Assembly: GCA_916613615.1 (NCBI GenBank)
Contig: OU744727.1
Span: 20,344,093 to 20,408,092 of the forward strand
DNA from: Steromphala cineraria
Lineage: Eukaryota; Mollusca; Gastropoda; Trochida; Trochidae
Reading direction: 5' to 3'
Length of the DNA stretch: 64,000 bases
The position numbers and the translations under genes are program-made. Shown piece by piece: positions 5,445 to 42,600 of the stretch; the first letter of the stretch is position 1, and the number at the start of each line of letters is the position of its first letter. Below the pieces are notes generated by a model. It ran no database searches. It was given only the letters and a program-made list of their open reading frames with translations, and was not told where the DNA came from.

Positions 5445-6704
5445 GACAGTTTTTGTAACATCCCTCGAAATGTTTTTACATGAGAGAAAAATGGGTCATT
5501 TTTACGCCTAGAAATTATTTCAAAGTCCAAATGTATGTTTCTAATGGAAGCTATAGTATGTAAATGAGCTGTAATCTCAGTACCGTCCGCTAAAATACAA
5601 TTTTTAATGCACACTATTTTTCATATCTTATGTCCTCTACTATACAAATCGTGTATAAAATTTATTAACTAATTGAAAAAAGTAAATGGTTTCCTTTATC
5701 TTTACAGACCTAAACACGTGTTACAAACTACTATTCTTACGAGGTCATTCATAACTTTTGTTGTCAATTGCAGAGTTGCTGGGGCAACGCACGTGCAACT
5801 GCAAATTCAAGCATTGCTTAGAGTGATGTAAGCCAAAATTATAGCAGGTTTCCAAATATATTGAAAATAAGCAAATTTTTGACAGTTTTACCTGAACAAA
5901 GGCAATATATATAAAGTATCATTTTGATTGCATTCATAAGGCCTAGTTGAGAAAAACTTAGTTATTTGAACATCTGTAGGAATTACATACATTAGTTGAG
6001 TAATAAGAAATAAACGGCAAACACCATTTTATTTCTATTTCCGTGAGTATTTTAATTATGCAGTCTTGATGTGCGACAGTTTTTGTAACATCCCTCGAAA
6101 TGTTTTTACATGAGAGAAAAATGGGTCATTTTTACGCCTAGAAATTATTTCAAAGTCCAAATGTATGTTTCTAATGGAAGCTATAGTATGTAAATGAGCT
6201 GTAATCTCAGTACCGTCCGCTAAAATACAATTTTTAATGCACACTATTTTTCATATCTTATGTCCTCTACTATACAAATCGTGTATAAAATTTATTAACT
6301 AATTGAAAAAAGTAAATGGTTTCCTTTATCTTTACAGACCTAAACACGTGTTACAAACTACTATTCTTACGAGGTCATTCATAACTTTTGTTGTCAATTG
6401 CAGAGTTGCTGGGGCAACGCACGTGCAACTGCAAATTCAAGCATTGCTTAGAGTGATGTAAGCCAAAATTATAGCAGGTTTCCAAATATATTGAAAATAA
6501 GCAAATTTTTGACAGTTTTACCTGAACAAAGGCAATATATATAAAGTATCATTTTGATTGCATTCATAAGGCCTAGTTGAGAAAAACTTAGTTATTTGAA
6601 CATCTGTAGGAATTACATACATTAGTTGAGTAATAAGAAATAAACGGCAAACACCATTTTATTTCTATTTCCGTGAGTATTTTAATTATGCAGTCTTGAT
6701 GTGC
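5445..6704. repeat. Tandem duplication, two copies of a 630-bp unit
   Basis: The block at 5445-6074 is repeated directly at 6075-6704. Every stretch I compared is identical, including the start (GACAGTTTTTGTAACATCCC) and the end (CAGTCTTGATGTGC). The near-zero divergence means either a very recent duplication or an assembly duplication. Matching minus-strand open frames in each copy (to the left ends of 5614 and 6244) are consequences of the duplication and not supported as genes. It lies in the intergenic region between the two convergent genes. Confidence 0.92.
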
Positions 6705-15642: not shown

Positions 15643-18600
15643 CTGGAATAAAGCAATTGAATGAGTGAGTAATAGGTGAAGGAAAAAGTTCATATTACTT
15701 TTTTTATATTATATTCAAGAATATTCATTCCAATGCGTTAATTGATAAACAATTAATCATGCATTAATTTTTTAAAATCCATTAATTTTCTTGATGTGAT
15801 ATCAATTGAATTTATTTTCAAATTTTATATGAAAATTTTACATAAAACATGCTCTCATGACCTTTAATCAATCGAAAGAAAAGAAGTAAAACAAAAGCCA
15901 TAACCTAATTAAAATTGACAAACACACAAAGGGAGACAATTCATAAAGGGAAGTAACTCTGCAAGGTCCAGCATTCTAGTGTAGAAAGCCCATATGGTTA
16001 TATATGATAGAAATATATATGTTGTGTAAGCTTCTTTTTGCAGCTTAGCAGTGAGTGGAAGCAGACAAACCGTGCAAAACTGAAACTTAATTATTAGTGC
16101 ATGCAGATATATTGCTCAGTAATTGCTCTTAAAAAACAAAAAATAATAACTAATCATAGATACAATAGTAAAAAGGAAACATCTATAAATCTTTGTGATC
16201 ATTTATTATTAAACTCTGTATAGGAAACATTTTAGATAATTCATTATTTAAATTTTCCTTTTAACTTTTCCTTTATTTTGATTAATTGACGGTCTCATTC
16301 AACATTGAAACTGTCAATTCAGATTCATAAAAAATAATTTATCTTGACAGAGAAAAGTTTCCCTTGCTTAAAATCTTCCCTGCAAGCAACTATAACAATA
16401 TTTAGAGCCTTGAAGCCAGCCTTAATACAAGCATGACATACATATTCAGCCCAAGCAGCGGCAGTTTGTGAAAAAAGCCAGTTCAAACATCATGTTTGTG
16501 AAATTTGTCACTCAAAACACTCAAAGGCATATCTCAAACAAGTCTGCTGCATTTTAGCCCAAGCTCATCCACATACTTCACCTGAACATGGTCATTACAA
16601 CCAGAGACTAAAACCAAGAATTTGGGCACAATGCAGCAAGGCTGAATGAACCAGAGATTGGTATGAGGTAAGCCTTGGATGCCATACAGTGACGGATCTA
16701 CAGGAGGGTTGAAACTGAGGGTTTCAGGGGGTTTCAACCAACCCCTTTTGGGAAAAAAAATTCTGATAGGTACACGAACAGGGTGAACTCCCTGTTTTCA
16801 ATAGGATTTGATTTAAACACATTTATTCAAAATATAGGATTGGGTACAAACAATCCTGATCTTAATCCCTCTTTCTTACTTAATTTTGGGATTTCCACTG
16901 TCATGAATTCACATAATCAGTCTTTGGGCTAGCTTTTTTCACACACTGTAAGTTAACATATCTACACCGACAATATGAAGCTTAAATATTGCATTCGGCC
17001 ACTGATAGCTGCAAAATGAAGCCGCGACAGGTGTACGTCTGTCGGCAGGTTTACCTAGAAACTGAGATCAGCACTGGCCTGTTCTCTTGATCTTAAGAAT
17101 TCCGATGACATTTTGAACACTTTGCACACTGGCTTTTACTCCAGCCTTTAAGGTGGCCCCTAGACCCTGGGAGAAATAAGGGACAAACGTAAAACAGCAA
17201 ATCATCAACGGAAAATGTACAACATCTACATAGGTAATCACTGCCTGCCATCATTTTGGTGTGGTGTTGTTAGTCTGCTTGGTTACTTGTGCAAAAACTT
17301 CACAAAGAGGTTTTTCAACAACCCATATCTATGGAGCATTATTATCAATGTAAGATAGAGTTGTGAGGATATATCAATACACTGGGAATACACTCTACTA
17401 AACTGGTAATATGAATTGATAGAGCTTGCGTTGCCGTCCTCGCCCGGAACGGCGCTTGATTACTAACCTCACCCCCCAAAATTTTCTCCTCAAATATAGA
17501 CGATTCACAAAAACGACCCAAATTAGCCCAAACCCGAGGAATTCCTTGGAGCCGAGGAAGATTCTTATCACTGTTAATCTGACGATATATGTATCGTGAT
17601 ATGATGTCAGTATCGTGATGCGTATTGTTGACTCTTAAACCGCTTTTTCAAGATGTTGGTCAAAGTTATTATTTTTTTCTATAAAATACCCTGATCATTT
17701 TGTACTGTGAAATGTATCGTTTCCAATCGTATGGTTCTCATATATTGTTATATTTATCGCATTGTATCTGAATTTCAGAAACTGGTGAGTTTTCACAGCT
17801 TAAAGGGGTGTAGTTTTGTTAATAAATTTATTTCAGTGTTGCAAAAGTGCATTCCTTGTTACATTCTCTATTGAATATCATAGTATGTTGGTTTACATAA
17901 TCCACTGTATCCCGTAGTAGCTCTCGTTACATTCTCTATTGAATATCATAGTATGTTGGTTTACATAATCCACTGTATCCCGTAGTAGGTCTTTCATTAC
18001 AAAAGTAATTTGTTAAACAACCAACAAAGATAAAGAAGTTGTTGGTAAAAATGGGATGAAAGTTTTTACTTCATTTATAGTTTCATAATGATAAAGAATA
18101 TATTTCAAAATTATGTTTTTAATTCATGTCATATGTTTAATGAACATTATGAGGATATATGTAAGGCAAAAAGCAAAGGAATTTAAGGAATTGCAGAAAA
18201 GCAACATCATGCCAATATGATGAACCAAGCAATGATTGAAAAATTATTACAGATCGGTAAAATACAACATTGATAGGTGACAGAATATTTAAAAACATAA
18301 ATCATAAATTTACCAAACAAACATTAAATTTTTTATTTAAGAAAAATAGAAAGTCTTTTATAAGGATGTATATTATATCTTGAGAAAGAAGAAGTCAGAA
18401 ATTCAGTTATTACTTTATGAGAAATGACATTATAAGCAAGCACACAAGAACATATTGAAGAAAACCAGCAGAAAGAATAAATAATGAAGCACAAAAATCA
18501 ACAAAGGAAACAATAAGTACAATGATTTTGAAAATAGAATGAGAAAACTCAAATATTGATGATATGATTGTATGGATTTTTAAATGAAACTCTTAATTTT

Positions 18601-21600
18601 CCTCTTGTTCATTTACTCTTTTTTAAGTTCTAAATAAAATTTAGAATTTTTACTTAATTTTTAAATATGTGTATCACATAAATTGCAAACTGACACAAAA
18701 TACTTAATGAAAACAAGAAGTACTAATCTATTCAAATAAGATACCATAAAAGGAAAACATCAACTCTTAATCTTGAAATTTTTTAAGTGGTATGCCACCA
18801 ACAACAGAATTATCTCCCTTACCTTGCCACTCTGCGAGGGAGTCTTGGGAGTTTGAGGGTGTGCATCGAGACATTTCTGGTATCTCAGCTGAAATAAAAA
18901 GACATTTCATGAAAATAATGTGGGTAACATTGTCTCATTTGACGATCAATGTACCTAGGCTTTCATTACTTGCAAATGACGGAAGTGGGATAACCCTAAA
19001 ATGATGGCGACCTTTTAATTGTCACATTTTCAAACCTCAATTTTAAATTATCAACTTTGTAGTTCTTTCCATCTAATTTACTATCAGAGCATTGGTATGA
19101 CTTATTACCTTGAGATAAACTTTTGGTACACCAACAGACAAGCCAAATAACAAAACACAAGTACAACAAATCAAATCCTAAAAGGACACAATTTAATCCT
19201 AGAAAGAAGGACTGATGTTAGACAAATATCACTACAGTTCTTTGTGTGTATTGCTGAGAGGTGACATTACTCCTGCATATTGCTGCCAGGAATCACTAAT
19301 TGCAAATTGCTACTGTATATTGCTACCATAATCGCTTATTGTCAATTGCTTCCGTGAATTGCTACAATGAATCATTATTTGAATATTTGCTACTGTGTAC
19401 TGCTACCAAGACTCGTTAATTGCAAATTGCTACTGTATATTGCAACATAATTGTTTATTGTTAATTGCTTTTGTGTATTGCTACAATGAATCATTATTTG
19501 AATATCTGCTACTGTATGTTGCTACCTAGACTTGTTAATTGCAAATTGATACTGTATATTGCCACCATAATTGCTTATCGTCAATTGCTTCTGTGTGTTG
19601 CTACAATGAATCATTATTTGAATATTTGCTACCGTGTATTGATACCAAGAACTGCTAATCACAAATTGCTACTGTATAATGCTACCAAGAATCGCTAAAT
19701 GAACATTGCTACTGGGTCAATGTAGTGCCTAACAAAATAGGACTGCTTCTGAGATCAAAAATTATGCTTGACTCATTCATATAAACTACATCCAAAATGC
19801 CAATTGTTATCTGTTGATATACTAATGATTCTTGAATATTTCTGCTGTCTTAATGGTGAGAAAATATTTACAATCACCTATAAAGTTTTCAGAGGGGAAA
19901 ACTTCACTTCTGTCTTGTCTTATCCATCCATAAACAATTTAAAAACGAAAAGTAAAATTCAAGCAGAAAGAAGAAATAAAGTGACGTACCTTGCAGGCAG
20001 CCTCTATAGTTTTACAGAGGGGACCTCCAGATGGTTCACAGTGGAACACATGGGCGTAGAATTGGTCCTGGGCCGCATGCATGATGAACGCACACAGTCT
20101 GTAACAAATAGCGGATCAATGAGGTGAGGTGATTTGATGGAATCCCTCCAATAGGGATCTTGCCTTGGATAGGGGCAAGGGTTCACTTGCTCAAAGCTCC
20201 CTTAGAGGAAGGTGATCTAATTCTGTGTCATAACTTTGAGCTAGGTCTAAGGAGCGTCTTCAACACTAATAGGGCTCTCAATAATGAGGGCAATGCCTCT
20301 AATAGCAGATTTGGATTAAGGTGCACAGAGGTATCATAAACAGATATCACTCTTATATATATATAACCTATTTCATGTTGATTTCAATGTCTCAGTCACA
20401 GGCCTTTACGGGTAACACTTTTACCTAAAATATTAGTCTTTCAGCAGGCAGGGATGATAGCTACACAAAGAGATATATAATTCTGATCAATAAAATGCTT
20501 CATGATAAATGTTAGTGTCTCATATCAATCATATTATTCATAACCTTCTTTCTTCTGTGTAATGAGTGCACACCCTATATTAGCAGCCGGGGATAATGGT
20601 ACACAAGATGGAAAAGAGCAGGGCCCCTAAAGATATAAATATCAAAACCCTTGATTCTTTATTTTTTAATGCAAAAGATTTACAGATGTCTGTTTTAAAA
20701 CTCACTTGACATTGCTCATGGCGATCCCCATGAAGGACAGGAAACGAACACGACACTCGTCAATCTTGTTCTCGGGTCTCTGAAAGAATACAGACATAAC
20801 ATATTCATTCAAATAGCATCAACCAACTTGCTGAAAGGAGCTTGTTGACTAGTATTATTTTAATGACATTTCATAAAATTCTAAATTTAAATCTTTTTCT
20901 CTAATTAGAAGCATAATTTCCCTTATGAAAAAAAAGGTTTCCATACCCCATGTTCAGAGATGGTGAGGGTGGATGGAGCGACGGCCACGTTGACAAACAG
21001 CCATCTCTCGGGGGGCACCTTGCGGTAGGCACGATCAATAGCCTCGTTTAGGGTCTCCATACCTGTACAAGAAACAATACCTTGATAATAAGGTCAAAGG
21101 AAAATTGAAATGTATCCATATTGTAAAGCTGATTTGCAAGACACACAGGCAGTCTAGGGCAAGATATCCTCTCCATTGTGACGCTGCGTCATGAACAAAG
21201 CTTTGATGTGACAGTATGCCTATGAAATTGTGCTCCGTATATACTGATGGCAGGTAATTTGCCAATGCTAAGGTGCAGATATTGATAGTTTTTTTTAATG
21301 TTATTACTAAAGTAATAAACATAACATGATTCTTGTGTCCCCCGTATACTATAGTTACGACTCTTGTAGGGTAATTACAAATATTTAGGCACTTGTGTCA
21401 TATGAACAAATGTCAATTCCCCATGGTTAAATATGCGCCAAATGACAACAAATTTCATGAAATAACACACTTCACAATGGACTCTCATGATAATATCCAC
21501 TAAATTACAAGAAGTAACTACAATTTGCAATTTTTTATTGTATACAAACCAGTGGGTCTGTTGACCTCCATTTGACCCAGGTAGTGACAGCGGATGTTTT

Positions 21601-24600
21601 TCTTCGGTTCTTCCATCGGAGTGGGGAAAGAGGCATCTGAAGAGGACAAAAATGTCATTATTTTCCTGTCGAAAGACATCCTCCTTAGTAGATTTTTAAT
21701 AGATTAAACCAACATTTCCATGAAAGATTCTACTTGATTTGAAATTCATTTTCCCTCAAGAGTCAAAACATATAGCAATCTGACATATGCTTTAGGGAGC
21801 AGTACTGACAAAAGAACTTAATTCTGTCCATTTGGCTTGTTTGAATATAGTCATCATTCTCTTGCCACAAGAACTACTTTTTTTTATCAAAATGAGGAGA
21901 AATCAAGCACACATACTGCTGTAGAGACTCTGGAAGGACAGTTTCTGCCCGTTAGGCTGGTTGTTCTTCTCCAGATTGGGCAGGTCCGTGGGTCGACTCA
22001 GTCTCTGCATGGCCGTGCGTTCTACCATGATCTTCTTGCAGATGTCTCTCAAAGTGTTGGCAATCTGTCGGGCGGGAGTGTCGCATCGGAACACGTGGCA
22101 CATGTGCCGTCTGCTCATCTTGTCTCGTGCCACATATGCAAAGTCCCTGAAATGTGAGGAAATATTGTCAAGTGTTGTCTTGTAAAGAAGGAAGATTTGT
22201 ATATTGTTTGACTTGATCCAGGGAATTCATGTCAGAGTTATTGGGAATTTTAATAACAGGAGGTATTCTATCAAAACACTAGAAATTAAATCTTCATGGC
22301 TTTTTATTCTATTTCGGGAAAATCTTTCAATCTGTTCAATCTTGGAATGCAGTTATCTGTTACAATGCTCTGAATCAACTGAGTGAGTGAGTTGTTTAGT
22401 GCCACCTTGGCAATAGTTCAGTCATTAGCAGCGTTGAAACGATATATAGCACCATTGCGTCACAAAGTACATTATTTTTAGTTTGTTTGTTTTTTGGTTT
22501 TTTTTCCAGACCACCAGCATTTGAAACAAGATTTGTGAAAACAGACAAAAGCAAAACAACTGTGTGTTACAGAGTAATGAAAAATTACAACAAAAGAACA
22601 GCTTCAGTGAAATTTCACTTTTTATCAAGAACAATTAATAACAGTTTGTTTTTTAAAATTTATGTTTTAAGCATGCAAATACCTCTGCCTTCAATTCACT
22701 ATCAAAGGCTTTGGTTTCTAAAAATGAGTTTGAAACAGAAAGATTATAAATATATTTAAGACAAAGATATTTATACTCTGTGCAATGACAAACTAAATAA
22801 AACTGTTTGTTTTGAACAAATTATGAACACCAATAATGTATGCACATTTGAAAAAAATAATCTTAGAGAAATGCGGCCGTCACATTGCCAATTATTTGAA
22901 ATAAATCATTTTGAAAACAATCGTTTGATGGATAGAGCAACGAAAATGCTACAATTGAGCAATGATACATTGAGACAGCCAGAGTTACCTTTCCCTGAGA
23001 GAAGAGAGAGGGAATAAAGAGAAAACATGATGGACAAATGAAACACATAATGTACTAAACTTCATTCACTATTAAAGATTAAACTAATGAAAGATTCAAA
23101 ATGAGTTAAAATAACAAAGAATTTACATTCAAACTCAAAATTTAAATAATTAATAGGAAAAATTCTGCAAATGGTAAGTAAACTTACTGAGTGTGATAAG
23201 AACTGATAAGAATGTTTTTTGAATAAACACCTTTAAAACAATATCATTCTTGTAAATCTATCACTTATTACAAATTTGTGAATATTCCTTATGTGGTTGC
23301 TGTGACCTGGGTTGTAAATGTGAGACTCAATAGAATGTCAGAAATCAAAATGTAGCACTTGTACCTCACTGCATTTCTGATTTGAGTATTGCTCTATGGG
23401 GTTCAGATCGAGTTGCTTTCTTTCTTACCTTTCACCTATATATATTAAAGCAATCAAAGACTTGCTTAGATATCAAACCTTGCTACCACATTGCTGATTG
23501 GCTTGGGTGCAAAGGGCACCTGATACCATCATCATTACTCAGATCAGAAACACAGTAAGGTATGAGTGAAACTTTCTAATTCTCAATGAGAGTAGATTGA
23601 AATTTATAACCCCTAGGTTGACATCTGAGTAACTTCAAACAACTGCTGCAATATAAGTAAGTATATGTAAGTATCTATGAAAATACTGACCGCCCGTTGT
23701 CTCGACCCACGCCCCAGACCCTGATGGAGTGGATTGGCTGAGAGTTGAGGAGGCTGAAGTCCTGGGTGTCCAACAGCCGCAGACTGTTGCTGTCCAGGTC
23801 CATGAACAGGTCCTTACCCTGGCAACGAGGGGGTTAACATTTAGTTTTCATTGACATGAGGGTAAAAATTAGCTTTTACGGACATCATGGGAGTTCACAT
23901 TCACATTCAGTTTTAATAAAACAAAGTGAAGATGAGGATGAAGATTATCATTATGGACATAGGAGTTACAAATAACTTTTGATGGATATGGGGATAAAAA
24001 TTTCTTTTGACAAGTAGTAAATGACTTATGTTGTATTATTGTATTGAATACTTGTTAACACATAGAATGGGTTAAATTTTGGTAAAGCAGTTCAACATTA
24101 GTAGTTGAATCAGTGTATTGTGTTCCTTGGGTTGGTGGCAATAGATAAAAGTGTCATTTTGGTTTGTCTTGAAAATTAACAATATTGGATTTTTTCAGAC
24201 TAAACGAGGTCCGTTGTGATTTGTTAACTTCGGCTATTACTCTTAAGTGTTGAAATGTAATTCTGGTTCTAAAATTAAATATTTCAACACAATTTAAACC
24301 ATGACAACAGCTAAATTATTTTTAATGTCACCTTCAATACCAGCAAAGTTTGGAAAACTTGTCAAATTGTTGTCAACTAACAAAATGATGTGAGTTTGAT
24401 CATAAAACTTTCCTGGAAAACTTCAAAAGTGGTGAAAAAGAATTCAATTGGAATTTAACTATCAGGTTCGTTTTTCAGTGGAGAAATTTTACGATGGATG
24501 TGGGGAAGTTTAATGATTTCATCAAAATTGGATAAAGATTTCATGCGTCATCCGACAGCTGAGGAATATAAAGTCCCAATCTCGCTATTGGAAAATGACT

Positions 24601-27600
24601 TCATTTTGGCATTGACACTCACATCTCCCCAACGGCCGACCACATCGTTTATATCGTTCCTCCCCAGCGAGAGATCCACAATGCATTTGTTGACGGCCTT
24701 GCTGCTTCGCTCCGGAGTTAGGTCCTCCTCGTCGATGCTCACCCAACCAAGGGATCTAACAGCGAATCTGATTGGCTTCTCAGTATTGGGCTCTTCATGC
24801 AGGGAGTTATGTTTGTCAGGAAGGGAGCATCTGTGAAAACAAAATCCTTGATTAATTAATGAATAGAGAAATGAAGCAAATAATTAGGGGACATTCTGAC
24901 CTACAAAATTTGCATATTCTCTGGAATGGACAAATTTCGGGAACATCCTGACCTACAAAATTTGCATATTCTTTGAAATGGCAAGACCTAATTTATCTAA
25001 TAAGACAAATTAGTCAAACAGCAAATTTCATAGGGGAATCTTAAATGAATTTTACTTAGTTTAAAGTATAATAAGCCTAAAATTAAGATTCATAGAATTC
25101 AAGGACCGTGAAAATTTGCACATTTCAAGATATTTCTGGATCAGAGATTAGTAACTTGTGAATAGCAATCTAATTGTCAACCATCAAATTCCTTTGGGGA
25201 ACTAAACATAGATTTTACTTCATAGAATGCATAAATAAGAAATTTGGATAAATTCTGACCAAGAACATTTGCATGTTTCTAGTTAGTTAGCAATCAAATG
25301 CAAATTTGCTTGAAAATAATCATCAGCTGGCCTGATATCAAATCCTCGGTGGAACTACAAATTTAGATAAAGCTTTAAGAAAGTAAAATTAACGATGATT
25401 AGAGCCCATGTGACTAAGGACAATTTACATATTTCTATCAATTCAGAATCAAATGCTTGGTTACTTTAGTATGTCATCTTTAGTTTAAGAGCAAAAATGC
25501 TCGAAACCAAAATAGATTTTGCAGCTGAGATAGATTTAGCAACAAACACAACATCCTTCCATTTTTCTTGAATATTTGGATATATAGGGTAATGAACTTC
25601 ATTGCAAATTCAGTCCTGGGCACTGATCTAAATGAACAGGAGGTTTAATTATCATGAATTTGAGAAACATCCTGACCGAGACAATTTGCATATACCTATT
25701 TAATTCTGGAACAAATTCATCCAGACTTCCTAGTTAGTGGAAAATCAAGTCTTATTGTTAAAGGAACCCAAAATGGATTTTGCTTCATGACAATCGAACG
25801 CAACTAAGAGTGTGCCCTTTGGACTCAATTCTCCTCAGAGGAAATGAAAGATTCTTATCAAATTAGGACTTTTTTCAAGAAAAAGTTCCAAAAAAATTTC
25901 TTGAAAAGTGTATCGAGAGTTGAAAAGGGAGATCTCAGTAGCAACAGGATGTGACCAGAATTCCCTGCAATTAAATCAAGCATTTTTCCATTTCTACGGG
26001 GAACCTTCGCTATCAGTGATCACAATCTAATTTTTTGTTTCACTCGAGTCGATTACCAACACGCAGTGTCTTATTTTTCCGAATCTTTGAATTTTTTGTT
26101 TTGAATTTGTTTTACCCATGTTGATTTTTTTCAAGTCATGTATTAAAGTATTCAAAATCTAAATTTCATTGTTTTTTTTAATTGATTTACTTTAGTCTAC
26201 TCTTGATAAATGCATGATATTTCACTCAATTCCTGTCCTTATTTTGGAGTACCCTGAAAGGATTTCATTTGATTCTTTGGAGCAGCTGGGAGTTTTTTTT
26301 GCAAGATTTACCTTGCTTGACATTAAAGATTTCTGTCTTAATGTGAGACAGACAAAAGGTTATATGAACAGGTTTTTACAAAATCCTTATTGAAAATGTA
26401 ACAAAGGTTTGGGGACAGTAATAAAACAGTTTTAAATCAATTCTTGACACATTTTATACTTTTCTAGTTTTAGGTATCTACTGCAAAAGCATTATCCATC
26501 TAATGTTACTAATATTGCTTTTTTTTCTCCCCTTAGGGGTAAAAGTAATCATTTTGCACTCTTTCACAATCCTTGAAAAACACAAAGCTGTGTATGTTTA
26601 TTAAGTAGTCCACAGTGAAAAGTGTTTGTAGGTTTATTGACAGTAATGTGATTCAGTTAGAGAAAGGAGAGTTCTGTAACCTGAAACAAACAAAGAATTT
26701 CCAAAAGTTAAGCTTTCAAAGGTTCCAAAAGGAAAACAATTCAGTGGCGTAGGAACGGTTTGAGGGGTGGGGGGGCCCAAATTTTTTTTGTGAGAGCAGG
26801 GGGTGGCCTCTCAAGGAAATGAAAAATGATATAAATGGATTGTTGAGTGGAGTGGGCTCTTTTTGTGAGAGCGGGGGGGGGGGGGGGGGGCGGATTATCA
26901 AACAATGATATATATGGATTGCTGAGTTGGGGGGGGGGGGGCCAAACTTTTTTTGTGAAAGCGGGGGTTGCCTTTCCAAAAAATATAAAAATGATTTATA
27001 TTTATTGAAAATTGCTGATTAATGCTTGATGAATTAATGATTTATGACTCATAGTCGTAGATGGATGATTGATGGATTTCATGATAGAAGTAATTCATGG
27101 ATGATTTATGACTCATAGAGTGATTAATGATAACTGGTGATAATGATAATTTTGTTGTTTGTATCGATAATATAATAATATTTAACCTTATAACCTTGAA
27201 ATAAATAGGAAGCATTCTCCAAATTCTGTAAGTTTATCTCCATCATTTCTTCTTGTTTTTCATTAACTCCTTTGGTCTCAGAAACTTAAATAAGCTCAAA
27301 TGTCAATTTTACTCTGTGAATAGGTCAAAAATGTTCTAATAGCTTAAATATTCATAACAGCTTTGATATACTCAGATATTTTCAGTCACGTGAAAAGATC
27401 AAAATTAATATGAGTTAACGTTATAGGAATGCTTAAGGGGGAACTTTGTTACATAGTCTTTGTTCTCATCATATGAATGGTTTTGAGTTTTTAAATTTGG
27501 CCTAAATATCACACTTAAAAACGTGAATGATGAACGTGAAACAAAAAGCTAAAATGGTCAAATACGTCTCCCAGGTAATAGGTTAAAGACAACAGGGTCA

Positions 27601-30600
27601 CAATATCTTTGAAAATAATGTTTCTTGCAAAATGGAATTCACTTCAAAGGATCGCATTTTGTTCTGAAAATGGATATAATAAAGCTTTAAAGCTCCGAAG
27701 GGCATTGTCCTTATTAGGGGCAACAAATTCACCACAAATTCTAATCATATTTTTTAAAGTAGTCTGTATACAACAAATCAGTTTTTTATGCCTTTTAAAT
27801 AATATGGAAATAAATTTAGATTTTAAGGGCGTGGCCCCAGTGAAAAGATCTCACTTATTCACATCAGCAGGTAGTTAAAACTTTTGCAAGATAAATTATC
27901 TATGAATGTGAAAAGGAAGAAAAAATAATTCCTTTAAAACGATTAAAAAACCCTAATTCATGGGGGTAATTCACGTGCATGTATGTTTCAAATTTATGTT
28001 TCACATAATATCAGACATATTAAATACAGACAAACTGACAGGCACGCAGACAAACTGATACATTTTGTTATTTGCCATATATAGTTCAAAGTCTCTTTCT
28101 TACAAAGATGAAACACACATCTTTCAATGATGTTTAAGATCACATGTTTTTTAGGAAAAGTGTTTAAAGTATTAAAGGGACATTCCTGCCCATATGTCCG
28201 TTTCAGTGGTGATGGGGTAGACCCTTCTACTTTCCCTGACCCCTGAGCTTTTATGCCCCACCCCCTGGGAAGGTTGGGGTAATATCTAAATATTCTCGCA
28301 TTTTCGAGGTAAAAAAAATCTGAACCCTTAAAACCCAGGGGTGAGGGGATGTTGAATGGAATAGATCCATGGGATTCTCTCCCCACAGAGGCAGATCAAG
28401 TCATGAAATGTTGTTACAGCCTCTGTTCTTTTACGCCAATTTTGTGGGATAGAATGGGAGATGCCTGATTGGAGGCAATCGAAGTTAGTTGTGCAATCAG
28501 CGACGCTGTTCTTAAATCATTTTGACTGCTGAATCATTGAAAAAGCATTGTGACATGAGCCACCCTTTCCATGCGAGAAGCGTTGTCGTTTAATAAATGA
28601 ATTTTTTTTCTGCCAGAGGAAACTACAGGAACCCACAGATTTCGGCGAGTTAAAACAGAGGCTGTATCAACATTTCATGACTTGATCGGCCTCTGTGGGG
28701 AAAGAATGATCGATGGGCCGTATCAATGAATTACAGAATCCCAGTTGTATACTCACAGAGACTGTAGAGACTTGGCAGCGTACTGAAGGGCGTGACCCTC
28801 GAACTCCTGTAGATGGTCCTCAGTGTTTGATGTGACACTGGTGGGCGTCGACGGGATGGAGCTGCTCGTAACAGTGCTCTGCAACAAATAGGATAAGTAA
28901 GTCATGAATGCTATAAGATTATGTGATAAACTTGAAGAATTATCTTTATGAGGACCACCTATGAATACAGAATGCTCACGTCCTTCTCTGAAAAAAGATA
29001 TGTTAATTTGCGAATTGAATTAAAATTAAGCATGGATGATATGTGAAAATTATCCATACTAGTTATGTAACATGGAGCAATGAGTACCGTGAGCAATTCT
29101 CAAATTAATTCTTACAAATATCTTCAGGAATGCATGTGCGTAAGTATAAATATTATGGTACATTTGATGCTTAAAAAGGTTGGTATCATTTTTAAATGTC
29201 TTTAAAAATACAGTATTACTGTATTTTCAAAAATAGCGATTTCACAAATGAATAATGTTCTTATTAGAAAATTTAGAGATATAAATTTCTCACATCTCAT
29301 GGTTTTTTTTTAGATTGATTATGAATGTCTGCTTCCAAAGCAAGACAATTATACAAACTGCAAGTTCTCTGAATATGGATCAATTTAAGATAATTCAAGT
29401 AAATATATTTCTCCTTCTGAAAAAAAAAGACCTTATAATACTGAATACTTAAATAAGGACTTCTTGTCTTTCTTTCAGGCTTTGTGAAATTATTTCATTG
29501 CTCTTTTATAAAATAGGTTTAAGTATATTGAAACTCTAAATTCCGAGAATTCAACAAGATGATTTCTTTTTATGAGACCATATATTTCCATGGGAAACCA
29601 AGTTAAAGTGCTTTCTTTCCTAGAGGCACATTTATCGGATATTTAAGTCTGGCAGTAGATGGCTAGAACAATAAATATGATTAAACTTTCGGCAGGCCCG
29701 TATACTTTCTGTGAGTGCATCGAAAACTTGAATCAAGCTAAGGATTTACAGTTCACAATTCCAACAATCTGCAATATATATATGTACATAAGAATAGCAA
29801 ATTGTTCTGATTAATTGGGTTGTGCTCCACAAAAATGTCAAATGTTAAGAATTGAGAACAATATGGAATTCTTGGAATAGGAACATCTATGATTGAAATA
29901 ACAACTTGTAATTTCCATGTTAAGTATATTTGTTGCACTGAATAACCTCCTTACATTATCCATGAAAGCTTATATCTATTCTAAGCTATATTGTTGCGAC
30001 CGTACTTTATGTTTTGTGTTATCATATATATTGAGAAAAAAACCATTGGCAAAGTATTTTTGGACTTACAATCAATCAAGTTAGTGATGGAAAGATTGCG
30101 AGAGATCAAGAGAGATCAAGAGAGATCGCGATCATGAATGAGAGATCAAGATCAAGATCATCATCAGGATTGAGATCTAGGGTGTTGAAAATGGTGCCTG
30201 ACCTAGGAAAGGGTTTGTTATTCGGTTTAGGACGGTTTAGGTAAGCATAAGAACAAATCGACTTTACAGGGTTTTGGATATACCCCCGTATCCTCGCGGG
30301 TATAAGACCAGGGGGCCCGGCAAACAAATATCTTGAAAATAGGGGGGTGGGCTTTAACCCGCGAGAGACCCCAACCAAAAAAATCATTGATGCGAGTTGC
30401 ATTGAAAATTGACATCGATACTTTTGACTATGTTGGTCAGGTCTTGTTAAACATCAATTGACACTTTTCCAGACGTATATTATTAAAAAGAATCATAAAG
30501 AAATTGCAAATGCTAACTTACATTGTTTGTTGTTTGTTTTAATCAGATTATATGATATCATTCTCATGAAAAACGAACGTGAATAATCAGTCGACATCTT

Positions 30601-33600
30601 TTGCTGCATGTGTGTACGAGTAGAGAGATATTTGTTACAAGCCTTTTCATTGGCCCAGAAAAGTAGGTCAACCAATCAGCAAGTCGATTAGAAAACGATG
30701 TGTGAAACTGAAACGTGGTTGTAATAAGTTCATGACAACATACTGTCGATACAATATTAAATGTCTAAATATTCAAATATTTGTTAAATATTTTCGATAT
30801 ATTACATTTTCAAAAAAGAAACATGCAGTTAATTGAAATATTTACGTAAATAAATTTCGAAGAAAAATTTGCAAAAATTATGAAAATGAACGTGAAAGAA
30901 TATTGATAGTTATTTGTCGTCAAGAAATTACGATTGAGATTCCAAGTACTGTAAAACAACGTGCTTTCGCGAAAGTATATTTGACAAAGATTGCTTTGAA
31001 CTTCGACGATTAAATATGATAAATAAGTTTGGAAATATGTCATATAAAACATTTAGAATGGATAACAAGCCTCATAAAGCGTTAGTTCTTGATAATGTTT
31101 TGGGAATCAAATATTTCAATTCCCGATCGCTGATGAAAGTGAAGCCACATACGATACATCGTGATTTCTGCTGAAATTTAACAGTACGTGAATAATGCGT
31201 GAACAATATATTGTTATATTTTTATTAATTTACAAATAGTCATTAAAACAACAACAACAGGACAATGTATTTTTATTTTACAAAAAATGACATCGATGTA
31301 AACTTGTGCATTTTGCTTCCGGTGTAAACATCGCTAACTCGATAGTCTGACATCGATCGTGTCACACATCCGAGAATTGGGGGGTGGGCTTTAAACCGAG
31401 AATGACCCCAAACTGCTCAACCCTGGGAAAATGGGGGGTGGTCTTTAGCTCGAGGGTGGACTTATACCCGCGAGGATACGGTAACCAAGGTTTTAAAGTA
31501 TGAGATAAAACCTTTACAGTATCTTTTATGTCAATCATTTGTGAAAATTGGCTGCTCTCTTGTCCCAGAGAAGCATGCATGGCAAACTGAATTACTGAAT
31601 TCAACAAATTACATCGGCAACGTTAGGGTTAAGTGAGGCCAATTAAATGTCATACGGACAATTGATATAGAGGAAAATAGCCAAGCAGCCATCTGAATAA
31701 ACATCCATGACAAAAAATCCAATTATAGCAGCAAAAGAAAGTTTTGAAACCACCATCATATCAGAAGGTCCAAGATCAATTGTGGCAGTTCAGATGAACC
31801 ATTGAAAATATTTCTTCAAGAGAAGAGCAAATATTGCATTTGATTTAATAACTGCTGTTATTAATCTAACCCTAAGCAAATGGAAGTCTTTGAATTACCA
31901 ATGATATAACCAGGTTCAAGGTCAAGTATGGCACAGTTGGAGATATCTAATCAAGTAAATAGCAAATTATACATCTTTATTATACCGCTGCCATAAATTC
32001 AAATCATTGCAGCAAATAACATTTAAGCCCTCGACACAACAGAGGTCAAGGTCATCAATGGCAGGTCAGATGTACCATGGAAATTATTTCAGATAGTAAA
32101 GCTCAAATCATGCATCTAATACTTCCATTAAATAAAATTATTGCATATTGAGCCATCTTTATGCAAGCAAGTTAAGGGTTAAGTGAGGCCAAACCCATCA
32201 CACCAAACATAACTCAATTTCTGGCAATAATTGATTTAAGCCAGTGGAACATGCAAGGTAAGTATACAAATACAAGACCCAGAGGGGGTTGTTAGTGGTC
32301 CTTGAGTAACTGATTAGACGTCTGCAGGTTTTTATGCTTGGTCGACAGTAATTGATTGCTTAGAAATTGCCTTATTGTGGCAGAGAGACTTGCAGGCGTT
32401 TTCTTTATAACTTGCGAAATAAATATTTTGACAAATTTTCCTAAATGGGGTCTGGTTGTTTAGTCTGATTCTATGAGAATAGTTGCAATTTTCTTGTGAA
32501 TTTAACTATTTTGAAAATGTCTATATTTTGTTTGTGATTTGGTTTAAACAAATTTATACTATCAAGTTCTGTGTATTTAGTCTACTGAATTAAATTGTTG
32601 TAAGTTGTTTCAAGGAGAGCTCAGACTAAAATGGAATTGTCATCACTTAAACGAGAATCGTCGATGTAACGATTAACAAATTTCTAAATACCAGTTGCTT
32701 GTAAACTATTTATAGATTTATAAATTCACAAATGTTGTTTACAGAATTTTTCTCAAAATTAGCCTCATCTTATTTTTCACAACCAAAAACATTTATCAGA
32801 ACTTAAATCCTAAAAGATTTTATCTTTCATGAATCTATCACTTTAACACTGATGTCTCTCCAAAAATATCTAAAATATCAATTTGCAAAGAGCTTTACAA
32901 GGATATTTCCTTCATTTCCATATCAAACTGAATCCGTCTGCTCTGTAGATGCAGACGGTCAATACTCAGTATCTAAGCATCATCTGCATCAAACGTTGAA
33001 CCCTTTAATTCTAAAAGGCTGTCATGAAAAGGGAAGAGGTATGGCCCTTATAATTGATAAATATTTCCCGATGGCCGAATATGGCAATGATTGAGAACTC
33101 AGCAAACAGCTTTACAACGATAACGCCAACCTCAACAGCTGAATCTCCACTTTGGAGATGAAGACGGAACAAAAAACATGACTCTAGCCAGTACAAACAT
33201 CTAATTAAAGTTGTTCTGTCCAGTAAGCACTCAGTTCCCATACTAATCCTTCACGCTTATGCGCTATCATTTTCTCGTTTGCGGTATGTCAACTTGATCC
33301 GAAGAACACGTAAATTCTGGTTTTCCTGGCGCAAATTGCGGCAATATTCAGGTCCGAGAGACGATCGTGTGTCAGACCAAGGATATTACAACGTATGATT
33401 ACAGTAAAGCGCCGCCTGTGCTGAATGATTACACAGGATCACAGGGAGCACGGCCATTGATGTTTGAAGTTCATGGTTAGAATGCCAGTGTGAGGATTAC
33501 GCTCCCCGATTGATTCACTTCAGCAGCTTTTTGTCCAAGCCAACACAGCCGGGGTCTGAGACCCTTATGTTATCTTGCTCTATGGGTAATGCAGGCACTG

Positions 33601-36600
33601 AAGGGGAAGATTGTGAAGTTTGACAACTTTCTCGTCGGGTTTAACGAGAGGGTTGAGGAAATTTGGGTTGAAGTGATGTATGCAAGTTGATATTTATTGA
33701 AGACATAAGTGACAGAATTAGATCCTGATTTTACGTTACTTTTTTTTTACTGTTAATACATGCACCGGTGTGTCAAATGGGTGAAGTTTGACAACTTATT
33801 TGTTAGGTGAGACATGGAATGTTGAGGAAATTGGGTTCGAATTGATGTACATAAGTTACAAAGACATCAAAGACTTACCAAACCAGTGTTAAATTGTGTT
33901 ATATTTCTATACTGGTAGTGAATTAAGGAACCCAGTTGGCAGATGGTCAAAGTTTGACAAGTTTCTGGTTTGTTGAGGAAATTGAGTTGAGTTGAATAGA
34001 TGTATACAAGTAACAGACATCAAAGACCAAATTGATCAAAATATATATGGTTAATCTGACCATTTGGTCTCCATTCTGTGCATTGGTGCAAGGTGTATTG
34101 GCGATGGCACAAAGGTAAATCCACTTTGGAATAGCACAAAATTCTACAGTAAATTTATCAAACCAAGCGAATTGGGGAATATATCCATGACTCTTTTTTT
34201 CAGCATTTAACATGTTGTAAATCAAACAATAGACTGAAAGTTCAAAGAAGTTTGTTCTTTGTGTCTGGGACGAGCAAGTGTCTGTACTGTTGACATTGTC
34301 TGAACATGTGCTGGGTCAGTGGGATGGAATAGAATAGAGGAGATTGGAAATAAAAGTATAGTTGAGTAGTTTTCAAAGGGGCAACCCTTAGAAGAACATC
34401 CGCATTGGTCAAACACAAAGGCTGGTTTCTGTTTTGGACTCTTTGACAAATAAAGCTTTTTGAAGGTCAACTCAATCCCAATCATTATCATTTCAGGAAG
34501 GCTTTCTTAAGTGTTTATGATCACTCTGCTTCTAGATACATGAAACACTTAAAGGACAGGAAAATATGGTTACCTTCATAGCTATATTAGCCCTTATGCC
34601 TTGAGAAAGAAGAAGGAATATTGTCACTTCTGCATCTAGAGGTACAAGCAACTTGGCTCTAAACCGTTTTCATGACTAAACTGACTTAAAAAAGAAACAT
34701 TTCATACATAAAAAACAAAACATACACAAATATTAATATCAAAGGTATTGTATTCTATGGTATCTTTTGAAGTGTATCTCATAAAGAACACAATAAGATA
34801 TGCATTTAAAAACAAACTACAATCATTGTCTAGAAACCCAAGTTGAAACCAAAGTAGTGCAACCCAAGTTCCTGCATAGAGAACAGTAATCATCAGACAA
34901 GATTAAAACCCTTGTCGATTCAAACCTTCATCATCTTAAAACGACACAAAAAATGCGACATTTCACCCCAGACTCAGTTGTAAGATCATCATTATGTCTG
35001 CACTGCAATTTGACAACGATTTCATTGTTCTGAGTTGAACTCTAAAATATGTAATTTTCATATCAACACAAATCTAGTTCAGGGCTCTAGACACTACAAT
35101 CATCCTGATTATTGCCATGTGATCATTGGCCTATGAGAAACAATGGCAGAAGTTACTTGGGTCAACGGTAAGTATTTTACTGAAAGTAATTTGTCTAAAT
35201 TTTCAGATATCAGGTGCAATGTATTTGTCACTGTCGAACAATTTGATAAACATAATGTTTTGACTTATGGAGTTTTTAAATTAGGAACTCGGTGTGATAG
35301 ACACTGTACTTTGTCCACCATTAGTTTTTACTTAGAAAGTATTCATAACTTTAGTGATTATAGTTAAACAATAAGAAGTTTGAAAAAAAAATTCTGTTTA
35401 CTACGGAATATCATTTACATAAAATATTCACAGTGTGCTGTGCATGTCCAAGTCAAGAAAACATACGATTTTGTTAAACAAGTTCATTGTTCTATAACCA
35501 GGATTATATCAATTATATTGATTGACAATTCACAATGATTGAAATATCAATAATTTGATTGATTTGTTCATCATTGTCCTTGACATTTAGTAATATGTCA
35601 TTTCTAGTTTGTTAAGAACCAAATGATGCCTCGAAAATTTCAAATTAAAATGAAAAACAAGCACTTTGTTTTGAATTACTCCTTTGTAAAAATCTGAGAT
35701 TAGGAAAGGAAATTTCAATATCACTTTCATTTATGAATTTGAATAATTTCAATTTTCAGGTTAATATCACAAATCTCTATCAATTTCCTCACTTTTCTGA
35801 ATCTCTTAATTTCCTGCCTTAGGCTCTACTTGAAATTTAAATCAGTAAATTACTGATTTAATCAACAAGAGCTTTGAAAATATAAAATCATGAAAGATAA
35901 CAATGGGTGATAATGAAAATCCGAGCAAATTTGTTGAAAAAAAACTTATCAAAATCTCTTTTGTCATTTCTTACCACTCTATCATCACTGATGAAATCTC
36001 TGCGACTTAAAGTCTGGTTTTAAGGAATTGATTGCTGAAATGCAATTTCAAAACAAGATAAATAACAAACACTTCTTTGACCTCAATTTGGGGAATTGAC
36101 GAGAAATTCACAGCGAAATAACAAATCAGCGCTGTTAATAGAGGAAGCCATGTTTAAAGTTTAAGTGCCTATGTTTATGCTGATCACAAGAATATTGGAC
36201 GGTTTTACAAATGGCAAGAAGATATCAAACTCAGGATGAAAAAGTTTAACGGCGGTGTTGAATCCTATGGACGGAGGAAAATGAAGCATTCATTGCAAGA
36301 AAGGAAAATCAATCTCTCATTATAGTCAAGACACAGGAATAGTGTCAATAAATTGTCTTTCCTGGCATTGCGTCTAATTTTCCTCACGTCAAGTTGAAGC
36401 TGTTATCAAGAAAATACAACATCGTAAACATCTATTCTTGACAAGAACTGTGAAAAGCTAGGCTGCTTCAAAAGCTTTCTGATTTTTATACAAGGGTGGA
36501 AGAATTTGTATGAGGTGGAGAATTTTGTAGGGGTGGTTATAACTTTGGAAATGAGTTGTGAAAAGAGCGAAGTGGTGTGTGCCTTTGGATTTCGGTTCAG

Positions 36601-39600
36601 AGGCTGCTCATTCTATCAATGTTTGGAGGTGGAGTTTGGAATCAGTGAAGAACTATTTAGTGGACTTTGGATATGGGTAGTTCCAATGCTATGACTTGAA
36701 ATGAAACATGTCAGTTTGAACCAGCGATTTATAAAAGCACATTGAAAATTTGAAGAGATGATTAAAAAATTTAAACCTATTTTGTTTTATATGAAAATCA
36801 TTCAGTAAAGCCAAAATCATCCAAACTATATGAAAATAGAACAAGCTGTGTTTGTGAAACAATGATGCCCCCATTGCCAAGGTCAAGGTTTTGAGGTCAA
36901 AAGTCATGACCTCATCTGAGAGGTCTTATCATGATAGATGCACATGAGAAATATCAAAGGTCTACCGCCAAGTAAAGTTATGATCGAAGTTAAAGTTTTT
37001 TGTGACAAACACCTGACAGACTGGCAATAAACATCAGAATCAGAAATAAAAATCAGAATCTTAAAGAAATAACAAAGCTATAAACAAATTAATAAAGAAA
37101 CAGCACAAAGTACACAATGAACTGGGTGGGAGGACAGACAACAGGAAGTGGAACCATATTGTTTCCGCTCGTGTCAACTAGTGATTCATGGGCAATTCTC
37201 CGGGGTACTATTAGGTTTCTCTGGAAAAAGATAAGCAATCTAGATAAAGGAACCTCTCAACCACTTCTCATCATAAAAAAACATTCAAATTGAAAACCAT
37301 GAGATGACTTTTTCTTGCAGAAATTAAACGATGAATTTGAAATATATTTCATGTCACATTTGATTGATATTAGGGGAAACATTTAATGCTAAACAAAAGT
37401 TTTAAAAATGCTTTCTTATATTCAATCGAGACTCATTTTACTTAACGGGAAAGGAGCCAAGACTATGGTGGCTATTATCTATTTTAGAGAAACCCTATCA
37501 GAATCAGCTTGAACATTATTTTCAATTCGGAGCCTCACATATTGTTGATGATTTCGGTGTGTATTGACACAATCATCTTTCACAAAGCCCTATGGTGACC
37601 GTACTAATTAAGTCCTTAAAACAATCTTAGTGCAATGTTAAAGAATAGAAGTTAAGGTCAACCATAGTAAAGGTTGCTTTGTGAAAAGAGACCCAGGTCT
37701 TTTAGGGTCGACAAAAACAAATTGTGCTTCCAAAATCCAAGACCAAAATTTTCCCAAAGCAACATTATCTGTGGGGAGAAGTACAAAAGTGTTTGATAGA
37801 TGACAAATGGGAGGTTGAGCTATCCACAATAAGACTGGTCACAGATTGGTATTAAAACCGTATCAGATTCCAGACATCTCCAATACCTCCTCTGCAGCTT
37901 GCAGTTTCATAATTCTACCAGGACAAACTTTGAACACCCTGTGCAAAATTTGAACCTAAACCTATCGATCCAAAACCTTACATGCTGACCGACCAATGCT
38001 CCATCCTAGTGACAACTCTTAAATCAGGCAAAATGGTCCATATCAATCAAAATCAAAGACTGGTTATGTCTAAAGGGCTTGTTAGGTAAACACCATTCTC
38101 TGAGGTGAATGTAAAGAATAGCATGTGGGAGGTCTAACTATCTGAAATCAGACTCATAGATTGACATTGAGTCTAGATCAGACTCCAGACATCTCCAATA
38201 CCTACTGTGCATGTGTTTGACAATTTAGCAAGACTTTGAATGAAAGTCAGCAACCCTCACAAGATTCAAACCTGGAAGCCCAGGTTGATAGCTTATCATG
38301 AATCCTATGATCAAAAGCTTGAACCCGATGATCAAAAGTTTGAACCCAGTGATCAAAAGTTTGAACCCAGTGATCAAAAGCTTGAACCCGATAATCAAAA
38401 GTTTGAACCCAGTGTTCAAAACTTTGAACCCGATAATCAAAAGTTTAAACCCAGTGATCAAAAGTTTGAACCCAATGATCAAAACTTTGAACCTGATAAT
38501 CAAAAGTTTGAACCCAGTGATCAAAACTTTGAACCCGATGATCAAAAGCTTATGAAAATGCTCAATTCAATTGCAACAGTTAAAATCAGGCTATGTAGAA
38601 GACACAAAATGTTGATCATATCAAAAATATTTTTTCAAGAAAGAGCCATTATCTGTGGTGACAAGTACAGAAGTGTTTCAACAGACGCATGGCACGTCTG
38701 AGGTCAAGCCATCTGCAGTCAGACTCAGATTGGTATTGAGTCCTGATCGAGGTCCAGACATCTCCAATACCTACTTTGAATCTTCAAGTCACATAATTGA
38801 ATCAGGACTTCCAATCCTCTACCTTGTTATTTCAACTCTGCCCGTTACATTTGTCTGGGAGTGTGTTGTGATGAAGCTTCTAGCCAGGGGATGACAACAT
38901 TAACTCTTAACAAGCTACGTTTATATTTGTTGCGATGATCTTAGTTGTCATTTGATGACATGATCCTTGTTTTGTGAAGTATTTAATTACTTATAGTGGA
39001 TAGTATCATTGCAGGGAGAAATCCAGTCAAGATTTGTCTAAATATGAGGACTTTTTCTACTTGGGCTCAATTCTTCAAGAGAGACCATTACACCAAAAAT
39101 GTTTGCCAAAAATATGATATTGGTAGGATATCTGCAAGCTTTTAATTAATCTAAGGTGATTGTCAATCTTGTAACAAACAACTTTGGGTAACATGAAACC
39201 TGCCCAAAAAGTGTAATGAAACATAACAAATTTTGATAAAGCATTATTTGCTCTAAAACAACTTCAAGCAAAACAGTTCTATCATTATCTCTTGGTAGGA
39301 ATTTGAAAGGATTAAAATGAGTGAGAGAGTTATTGATTAGCTGCTTGGGAAATATCTCAGCCATTAGGGGCGTGAAAGGACTTGAGGAAAGCCTAAAATC
39401 AATCATGGCATTATGTATGATGGAACCTGCATTTGAACTGCAACCACCATATGCAGGGGTCATGGGTCATTTTGCACATGTTTTGCAGATGTTGCTTTAA
39501 CCTTTGAATTTTACTCTTGATATGCACATTGGATGAAAAGATGTTGCTTTAACCTTTGAATTTAACTCTTGATATATATATCAAGAGTACAATTCAAAGG

Positions 39601-42600
39601 TTAAAGCAACATCTTTTCATCCAATGTGCAAAATGACCCATTTCCCCCTGCATTCCCCATATATATATATCATATAAGGGCAATGGCCTCTTTCATATTT
39701 AGAGGACAAGTTGAAAAACTGAAAATGGTTCAATGTCAAAGATGTCTTTCCCAATCCCTGCATTATTGAAGAAAATAGACACAAAAAACACTTACCGATT
39801 CGCTGGTGATTGAGATTGACCTCAATGTCGTCTGATCAGGGGTCAAAGGTGAAGGTTGGTCACGCTGAATAGTCCCACTCTTGATGTGCCAATAGTACGC
39901 TCCATCATTATCTGAATAATGCAAATATGATTATTTCTTTGTCTAGATATTGTGTTTTTGTAAAGTATCTGATCAAACCACAGAATCTCTCAAAATGAAT
40001 CAAAGGTCATTTGAGTTCCTTTGAAATCACAGTAAAATTAAACTATGAGTATATTTTAGACGAAGAGTAGTAAATGTGTAGGCAAAACTGGTATAACCTT
40101 TTTGTACATTTTTACCATGGTCCAAAGTGAATGATATCTTTTCAAGGGAAGGATTCTTAATACATTCAAAATTTATCATCTAAATTACAAACTTTGAATT
40201 TCAAAGTTGTCTTGAAATTCAAATGTAGGCATTATTCTTTTATCAGGAATTAATACTCATATATCACATATGCAAAGAGTTCACATTCAAAGCAACATTC
40301 GAAGATATGAATCTAGTTATTCAAAATCATACATGACATTTAAATTTGAAGCTTGAAGTTCTGTAATTCAAATCAGACTAGGGGCTTACAATAGGGTAAT
40401 TTGCATGTGGAGGATTGAATTTCACTTGGTTCAAAGAGACCCCATTATTTGTCAAACAGAAACCACAAACACTGAATATTGTAAACAGAATTACAGTGAT
40501 CAAACTTTTGTTAACTGTAAAATGCCTTTGGTGTGAATTTGGACATTAATACACTATTTACTTAATACAATACGTTACAACTGCCATTTCCCAAAGGCCA
40601 ATTTTAATTCACAAATCAATAGAAAGTCTTGTTAATGCCTAATCCATTACTGAATCAATTAAAGGTGTACAAATATTCTATGAAACCAAAGAATTTTTCT
40701 TTACAACTGTTTTCCCCTAATTCCATGATTATTGGATTAAAATGTTCTTCTTTACATTATGATGCAGTTCAAATTACCAGTTTCATCATCCTTGAAAATG
40801 TTAAATTCTTACTAAGAACTATTGTTTATATAGCATGAATATTTTAATTTAATTTGGAGAAATAATGAAACATCTACAAACATTCAATATCTTAAAATAA
40901 TTTCTCAATGCATTTGTGATAGAGATCAACTTAAAACGCATTAATCCATTAAGAATGAATTCAAAGGCATTAAAGCAACTTAAAATTCATGTCGAAAGAT
41001 TTACTTCAAGCAAGACAAGAATCTTCACTTTAGAGTATATTGTTTAAAAAGTCACGTCTTTAGAATCTAAAACATGAAGTGAACATTCTGCAAAACATGT
41101 TGGCAACCAATTCAAAAGCGAACACATTTTGCTCATTGAAACAACTGTTTACATTGCCGATACAGCAACTCCAATTATCCCTGCAGGAATTGAGATTTGG
41201 ACCTTTTTTCTGGAGCGAGCATTCGATGATATCGGCGAGATGACGCAAACTTGACTAAATAGACTTAACAAAGCCAGAGCACCCAAGCGAAATGAAAGAG
41301 GTTAGTTTTTGGAACATTCACTACGGACCCTGACAGGTTAATGGACCTGAAGATGTTTTTTGCTTTTTTTTTATTTGTATAATTATACTACTGCACACAA
41401 CGTGAGCTTTCCTCAACGGATAACTCTGTTATCCTGACGCTATCAGTAACGCAACAACGCTTCAGTTTCGGCTTAATCTTGGTTGCAACTTCCTCTGATG
41501 ACACTCAGTTTGTGAACAAGATCGCTACTAGGTTTGAGAGCTAAATTTACACGGAGGTGTTAGTTTTTTTAATATCTGTTAGATTCTTTAAGGGCTTTCA
41601 ATCATGATTTTACTGATATTAACTGATAAGGAGCATCTGTTAGATTTTTAAAGAATGTAATGTTCTAAAGCTTTGTTTTAATTTCAAGATAACTTAGTTT
41701 ATTGCAACTCATAAAATGACAGTTCTACTGTTGCCTGATACATTGTTGATTCGTTAGACATGTCTTGTCATAACAATTTCTAATAAAAATAAGTCCCGCA
41801 TCTGAACTTCCATACCCAAAGTGCTGTTAACATGGATTCGATATAGCAATGTATAGAAAAACTTAACTGAAAACTAATGAATTAAAAATATTGGAAAAAT
41901 TTGAAAAAGGAAATTTCTAATTGAGGCTTCCCAGTTGGTGTGACCATTCCTTCAACTTGTTTTAAAGGTTTGATAAAATAATTGAAAGCATTTTGACAGG
42001 AATAAAAGAATGAAATCAATGGCAGGATGATCCTGGCTTCAGTTTGTTCAAGAAGACTGATCATATCCTGAAATACCGTATAATGGGCTTGACAACACTT
42101 TTCTTGATATTCCAATCTTGTAATTGATTGTCAACAAAATGCTTCAATTAAAAGATGAAATATTTGAATTGTTAAGAATTGTTCACGCAACCATTTAATA
42201 TTTCTTAATTAATTATAACTTTCTAAGTAGAACAAGGTTGATCAGTCATGTCAACCACTTCCAATTCATTGATTTAAGAGACGTAGAATAACCCAAAGGA
42301 TGTAATTTCATAAACATATTTCAAACAAATATTCCCTGGAACTTATTTTCCATTAAAAATGTTCCAATAGACCTGTAGCTTCTTCATCGAAATAACTTGT
42401 TAAATCAAAATTAAGTTTTTTATTAAAAATCTAAATAATCACCTTCACATTTCTCCCAACCTGGTGGCAAAATCTCTGAACTTTCGTCCGATTCGCTAGC
42501 CAATGAATCTTCAGTGCTCGCCTGTAAAAAGATAATTCACATGTTTGCAAAAACAGATTGTAGGAAACTTCAATTTGTAAATCGTGGCAACAACCTGACA

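Follow-up and report, generated by a model that had tools for sequence, protein, structure and literature searches.

A microexon of 6 nt is present in vertebrate APBB1, APBB2 and APBB3, with both isoforms occurring in mammals, chicken and fish; its residues are placed within a beta-turn loop of APBB2 and, from vertebrate data alone, its age is put at more than 400 My (PMC4317164). In Fe65/APBB1 this is mini-exon 9 (E462-R463), and two further reports indicate that Fe65 forms lacking this pair of residues dominate in non-neuronal cells (PMC8304848) and that inclusion of the APBB1 microexon leads to stronger Kat5/Tip60 binding (PMC8911335). Deletion of the Apbb1 microexon left the neurite outgrowth of Neuro2A cells unaffected according to PMC5247714, a null result that counts against a strong role of the microexon, and the apbb1 microexon is part of a zebrafish deletion set (PMC12626424).

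A second point of reference is provided by the neural microexons that depend on eMIC (Srrm234) for their splicing in Drosophila and mammals. As characterised in PMC8797185, such exons have a UGC close to the 3' splice site, a long AG exclusion zone and a long UCUC-rich tract, their 3' splice sites being weak in both fly and mammal and, in the fly, their own 5' splice sites being weak and the upstream 5' site strong; the same paper ascribes to the fly PTBP orthologue no role in repressing them, and states that conservation falls off fast outside vertebrates.

The candidate microexon and its host gene

The window (the whole 64,000-nt stretch of Steromphala cineraria DNA that was analysed, 20344093-20408092 of its contig) contains an Fe65/APBB gene whose features are collected in Table 1. 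When joined without the microexon, the modelled exons form one open frame of 713 codons plus a stop, the model beginning at 44909 and leaving out exons upstream of that position. Its product has the layout of the Fe65/APBB family, i.e., a WW region (LPPGWEK...YYWH) followed by PTB1- and PTB2-like regions; its best database match is an APBB2-like protein of Haliotis cracherodii (96% over the PTB1 region), and the human PTB1 chain 3d8d is matched with E=1.7e-32.

Table 1. Coordinates of the Fe65/APBB gene and of the elements around the candidate microexon, in positions of the window
Feature	Position	Strand	Remarks
Fe65/APBB gene body	17068..44909	-	14 exons hand-modelled from splice sites and frame
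Fe65 exons	44909-44357, 43742-43586, 42521-42443, 39911-39796, 28878-28757	-	
Fe65 exons, continued	24830-24623, 23818-23691 (G), 22146-21917 (H), 21636-21550, 21062-20947	-	
Fe65 exons, last four	20779-20706, 20098-19990, 18888-18823, 17166-17068	-	
Exon G of PTB1	23691..23818	-	3' end ...DNGR, split codon CG|, donor CG|GTCAGT
Intron part upstream of the microexon	22995..23690	-	696 nt
CU-rich tract, UCUC-rich	22997..23025	-	29 nt including one purine
Microexon 3' splice-site AG	22995..22996	-	Scored with the small PWM
Candidate 6-nt microexon GGAAAG	22989..22994	-	Inclusion would add E-R (equivalently R-E) to Fe65 PTB1
Microexon 5' splice site GTAACT	22983..22988	-	AAG|GTAACT; scored with the small PWM
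Intron part downstream of the microexon	22147..22988	-	842 nt; one TGCATG near 22677
Exon H of PTB1	21917..22146	-	Start |G GAC TTT (RDFAYVARDK...), acceptor TTTCAG|GGACTTT

The preliminary description of this DNA had pointed out a CU tract, CAG, GGAAAG and GTAACT between exons G and H, and this arrangement stands: the six bases lie at exactly 22994-22989, flanked by TTTTCTCTTTATTCCCTCTCTCTTCTCTCAG on the 5' side and GTAACT on the 3' side, within a phase-2 intron of 1,544 nt whose repeats are short and imperfect. Because the intron divides the junction codon as CG|G, skipping of the six bases would leave DNGRDFA (DNGR-DFAY) in the S. cineraria protein and their inclusion would produce DNGRERDFA (DNGRERDFAY), a change that the preliminary description had already proposed and that the joined translation bears out. 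The candidate is an in-frame unit of exactly six bases, bounded by AG and GT, in an intron of PTB1, and it would add Arg-Glu/Glu-Arg at ...GR^DFAY, the point at which the human PTB1 crystal construct 3d8d reads DSGRERDFAYVARDK, with Glu-Arg present. In length, in PTB1 position and in the Glu-Arg pair of human APBB1 it resembles vertebrate mini-exon 9, and, as for this exon and the 6-nt microexons of APBB2 and APBB3, both protein forms are encountered across animals; unlike them, it belongs to a protostome gene, and its likeness to human is known at the protein level (3d8d). The position, phase and residues that had been said to agree with the vertebrate mini-exon do appear to fit.

An AG-N6-GT arrangement per se is common, with four such sites in the G-H intron and 386 on both strands of the window. 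Within the intron, however, GGAAAG is the only one with a pyrimidine tract (17/17) and the only one coding for R-E-R; in the window, at least 15/17 upstream pyrimidines are found at 4 sites, at least 16/17 at 1/386 and R-E-R coding at 1/386, the last two being the GGAAAG site. When the intron was shuffled 20,000 times with its dinucleotides preserved, any AG-(RER six-mer)-GT arose in 117 of the shuffles, whereas an RER site with at least 15/17 pyrimidines arose in none of them (and in 1/20,000 once R-E-K was allowed as well). In the 1.27-Gb assembly (281 contigs), the pattern Y15-N-CAG-NGARMG-GTRA has one match, which is this very site, and its backward control has 0, a uniqueness that is partly post hoc because the pattern was written after the site had been seen; the exact 18-mer TCTCAGGGAAAGGTAACT likewise occurs a single time in the genome. 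Chance is therefore an unlikely explanation for the site, as the preliminary description had supposed and as the site counts, the shuffles and the genome pattern search all bear out.

Several other features of the same gene and window may be recorded here. The last coding exon of Fe65 has two homologous alternatives on the minus strand, 17166-17068 (GLGATLKAGVKASVQSVQNVIGILKIKRTGQC) and 15642-15568 (NLGTSIKSGMQTVFGSIAQLASPK), the H. cracherodii entry ending in the latter type and Gigantopelta in the former. At the minus-strand exon start at 21062 (the exon following 21636-21550), the model has PTGMETLNEA but the H. cracherodii entry P0001 has ATGTTDSTRRMDTLNEA, which suggests an extra small exon or an alternative acceptor in PTB2. 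Two minus-strand ORFs, 5396-5620 and 6056-6250, are identical over their first 59 residues, as expected of a local duplication, and both-strand ORFs of a repeated unit of about 7 residues at 38225-38566 indicate a short tandem-repeat array within an Fe65 intron.

Splice signals and plausible regulation

Splice sites were scored with a small matrix derived from the Fe65 gene's own sites, the other sites being scored leave-one-out. On this scale the microexon acceptor reaches 8.6 bits (3.3-12.6 at the 14 other Fe65 acceptors, 3 of them higher) and the donor 5.6 bits (1.6-9.6 at the 13 other donors, 3 of them lower), and the upstream donor of exon G scores 8.5 bits. Neither microexon splice site is outstanding alone, as the gene span contains 1,451 AG sites, among which the acceptor ranks 30th, and 1,409 GT sites, among which the donor ranks 75th, i.e., 29 and 74 sites, respectively, score higher. 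Taken as an acceptor-donor pair six bases apart, they are second of the 386 in the window, the first being a plus-strand pair with an acceptor of 3.1 bits.

What sets the site apart from the gene's 14 other acceptors is the upstream sequence, with 10 UCUC/CUCU words in 40 nt (0-2 elsewhere) and a pyrimidine run of 29 nt with one purine allowed (6-15 elsewhere); the AG exclusion zone, at 62 nt, is the second longest of 15 (18-71 at the others). The candidate thereby shares with eMIC-dependent microexons the very short in-frame length, the long UCUC-rich tract and the long exclusion zone, and differs from them in that UGC is absent from the 130 nt upstream of it and in that its acceptor does not appear weak on the small matrix; TGC occurs downstream at +28, +50 and +145. 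The PF15230 (eMIC) profile had no match in the snail's own genome, nor in any of 14 control genomes.

The bilaterian Srrm234-eMIC system may raise inclusion in neurons, and the UCUC tract may help to hold the exon out elsewhere; since the tract and the exclusion zone are present, UGC is absent and the acceptor does not appear weak, neuronal, eMIC- or PTBP-type control is something we infer from these signals. The CU-rich upstream tract, known here from the DNA itself, recalls the mammalian PTBP1-repressed microexons, but PTBP repression can be put forward tentatively at most, because the fly orthologue, according to PMC8797185, does not repress eMIC-dependent exons. Use of the exon under some other regulator, or its broad inclusion without being a neuronal eMIC/PTBP target, is possible, if on the doubtful side, and this reading overlaps with the preferred one, so that the probabilities given to the explanations do not sum to one. 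It would accord with the missing UGC and with the insert being present in 28/28 rows with a D-H-C-R junction (best 120 of 2,028 protein matches, see below), as if the exon were widely included in ants and bees, although these rows are perhaps a biased sample because the query carried the insert; the UCUC-rich tract, the long AG exclusion zone and the neuronal use in vertebrates suggested by PMC8304848 speak against it.

The insert in other animals and the competing explanations

A first protein search with an insert-bearing query was run against 90% cluster representatives, behind which further isoforms stay hidden; in addition, an exon of 6 nt may escape gene finders. Among its best 120 of 2,028 matches, 71 have two extra residues precisely at the junction (ER in 69, EK in 1, LR in 1) and 49 do not. 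Within these best 120 of 2,028, the insert is found in 56/62 named arthropod rows, in 2/29 named mollusc rows (Aplysia californica P0018 and Candidula unifasciata P0017) and in 13 of the 24 remaining rows for which no taxon is given, and is absent from the nematode (0/1), nemertean (0/2), brachiopod (0/1) and annelid (0/1) rows; the H. cracherodii entry, which represents a cluster of 10 members, is without it, as are 26/28 of the other named mollusc rows, and this counts against the exon in spite of the hidden isoforms. Two rows of interest come from short contigs: P0032 (2,795 bp, a transcript-like size), 90.6% like Elysia marginata, carries EK where the E. marginata row carries no insert, and P0123 (950 bp; nearest to Pinctada and Lingula) carries ER. 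Beetle-like (P0039 with, Atheta without) and louse-like (P0055 with, Pediculus without) pairs differ in the same manner, and in all three pairs the two members may be different species. The spider Larinioides (P0107) reads GRLRDFAY, with different inserted residues.

The second search, for shorter proteins and again with an insert-bearing query, gave among its best 120 of 184 matches ER in 9, SV in 1 and no readable junction in 26, the remaining rows lacking the insert or not spanning the junction. As the first two queries carried the insert and the best 120 were listed for each, insert-bearing rows are perhaps over-represented. Both forms also occur among the vertebrate rows, as human cDNA P0161 has the insert and penguin P0181 lacks it. 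The third search, built on P0197, reached tunicate and vertebrate APBB rows, and DNGR without insert was read in 106/118 new rows among its best 120 of 1,770, the two named tunicate rows, Styela P0242 (DSSR) and Phallusia P0246 (DNVH), also being without it. In the group P0241-P0251 (Styela, Phallusia and nine neighbours), 10/11 rows were read and had no insert (the script gave no reading for P0245), and Arg precedes DFAY only in Styela among the rows read. In the salmon Oncorhynchus tshawytscha (P0150) the junction is GRSVDFAY, a form that was discounted because it likely stems from read-through of a GTCAGT-type donor and not from a microexon.

Short ORFs among the best 120 of 184 matches bear on the position of the intron. 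Fifteen end right after GVGRDNGR (12) or GVGRDHCR (3), which fits a phase-2 donor CG|GTAA (read as CGG TAA), four more run only a few residues beyond GR/CR, and 11 (P0230-P0240) enter RDFAY directly from unrelated residues; the nearest named relatives are insects, molluscs and nemerteans for the exon-G pieces and molluscs, an annelid and Daphnia for the exon-H pieces. This suggests that the intron is conserved in its place and its phase and that neither flanking exon contains the ER codons, a picture that pools ORF ends from several sources and for which no one species gives all the parts. That the insert merely extends exon G or exon H seems unlikely, as the 15 ORFs ending after GR/CR and the 11 entering RDFAY argue against it, if indirectly, the pieces for the two exons coming from different sources.

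On balance, GGAAAG is quite likely a functional optional microexon of Fe65 that shares its ancestry with vertebrate mini-exon 9; that it is real, optional and homologous is probable in view of the site, its phase, the coding change, its rarity and the occurrence of the insert in molluscs and arthropods. A decoy that the spliceosome never uses deserves hardly any credence: the candidate is known from DNA alone and the insert is missing from the H. cracherodii representative, as such a decoy would have it, yet none of the 20,000 shuffles combined an RER site with such a tract, the degenerate motif occupies one place in the genome, and the expected residues are encoded in the expected phase. Very improbable, too, is a relic, i.e., an ancestral microexon no longer included in this species, for even though the skipped form is the representative in 27/29 named mollusc rows (best 120 of 2,028), nothing is damaged in either splice site, in the reading frame, in the pair of codons or in the tract, and neutral decay would not keep them so for long.

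Convergence would mean that the exon is real and used, but that molluscs, arthropods and vertebrates each gained the ER insert on their own, at a turn of PTB1 that tolerates it. It may draw on PMC8797185, where the fly and mammal programs share only four exons at equivalent positions (three of these being favoured as convergent), as well as on the lack of the insert in most spiralian rows and in 6/62 named arthropod rows (best 120 of 2,028) and in both named tunicate rows. It is nonetheless unlikely: the same intron place and phase seem to recur in several lineages, the insert is always exactly two residues long, ER accounts for 69/71 inserts (best 120 of 2,028), and a single gain followed by losses would explain why molluscs, arthropods and vertebrates all have the insert. 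Under the preferred reading of shared ancestry, the microexon is probably older than the split between snail, insect and vertebrate; the origin before the protostome-deuterostome split proposed in the preliminary description seems well supported, because the same two-residue insert occurs at the same point in molluscs and arthropods, beside insert-less forms. We also lean, with less assurance, towards the ER microexon being a homologous neural microexon of the bilaterian ancestor, its residues kept in molluscs, arthropods and vertebrates.

Implications for Fe65 and for neural microexons

The strand adjoining the microexon turn normally pairs with the ligand peptide in PTB domains. In the protein model of Aplysia (mean pLDDT 77.6; 93 for block 141-150 and 90 for block 151-160), the insert, E155-R156, is placed in the PTB1 turn between the strands 145-148 and 157-163, so the ER pair is predicted to make the turn that joins strands 5 and 6 longer, next to the ligand-pairing strand. 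By analogy with Kat5/Tip60 and mammalian APBB1, this longer turn might retune partner binding.

A microexon of this kind is already known; what is new, as far as the literature search shows, is that a protostome has it and that the residues are the same, the search having found no title on an invertebrate Fe65 microexon, although it was judged mostly by title and a prior invertebrate report is possible. If ancestral, this two-amino-acid switch would be more than 500 million years old and, if kept for so long, would count as one of the most ancient neural microexons known. It would then be a counter-example to the view of a near-total replacement of neural microexon targets between phyla, and one invisible in Drosophila, should the fly have no clear Fe65, as PMC8304848 implies. 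Did the ancestral bilaterian eMIC program have fixed targets? The exon would, if the shared ancestry is true, allow a direct test of this question, and it would also point to an ancient role of the PTB1 turn, beyond the vertebrate, Alzheimer's disease setting of the work on Fe65.
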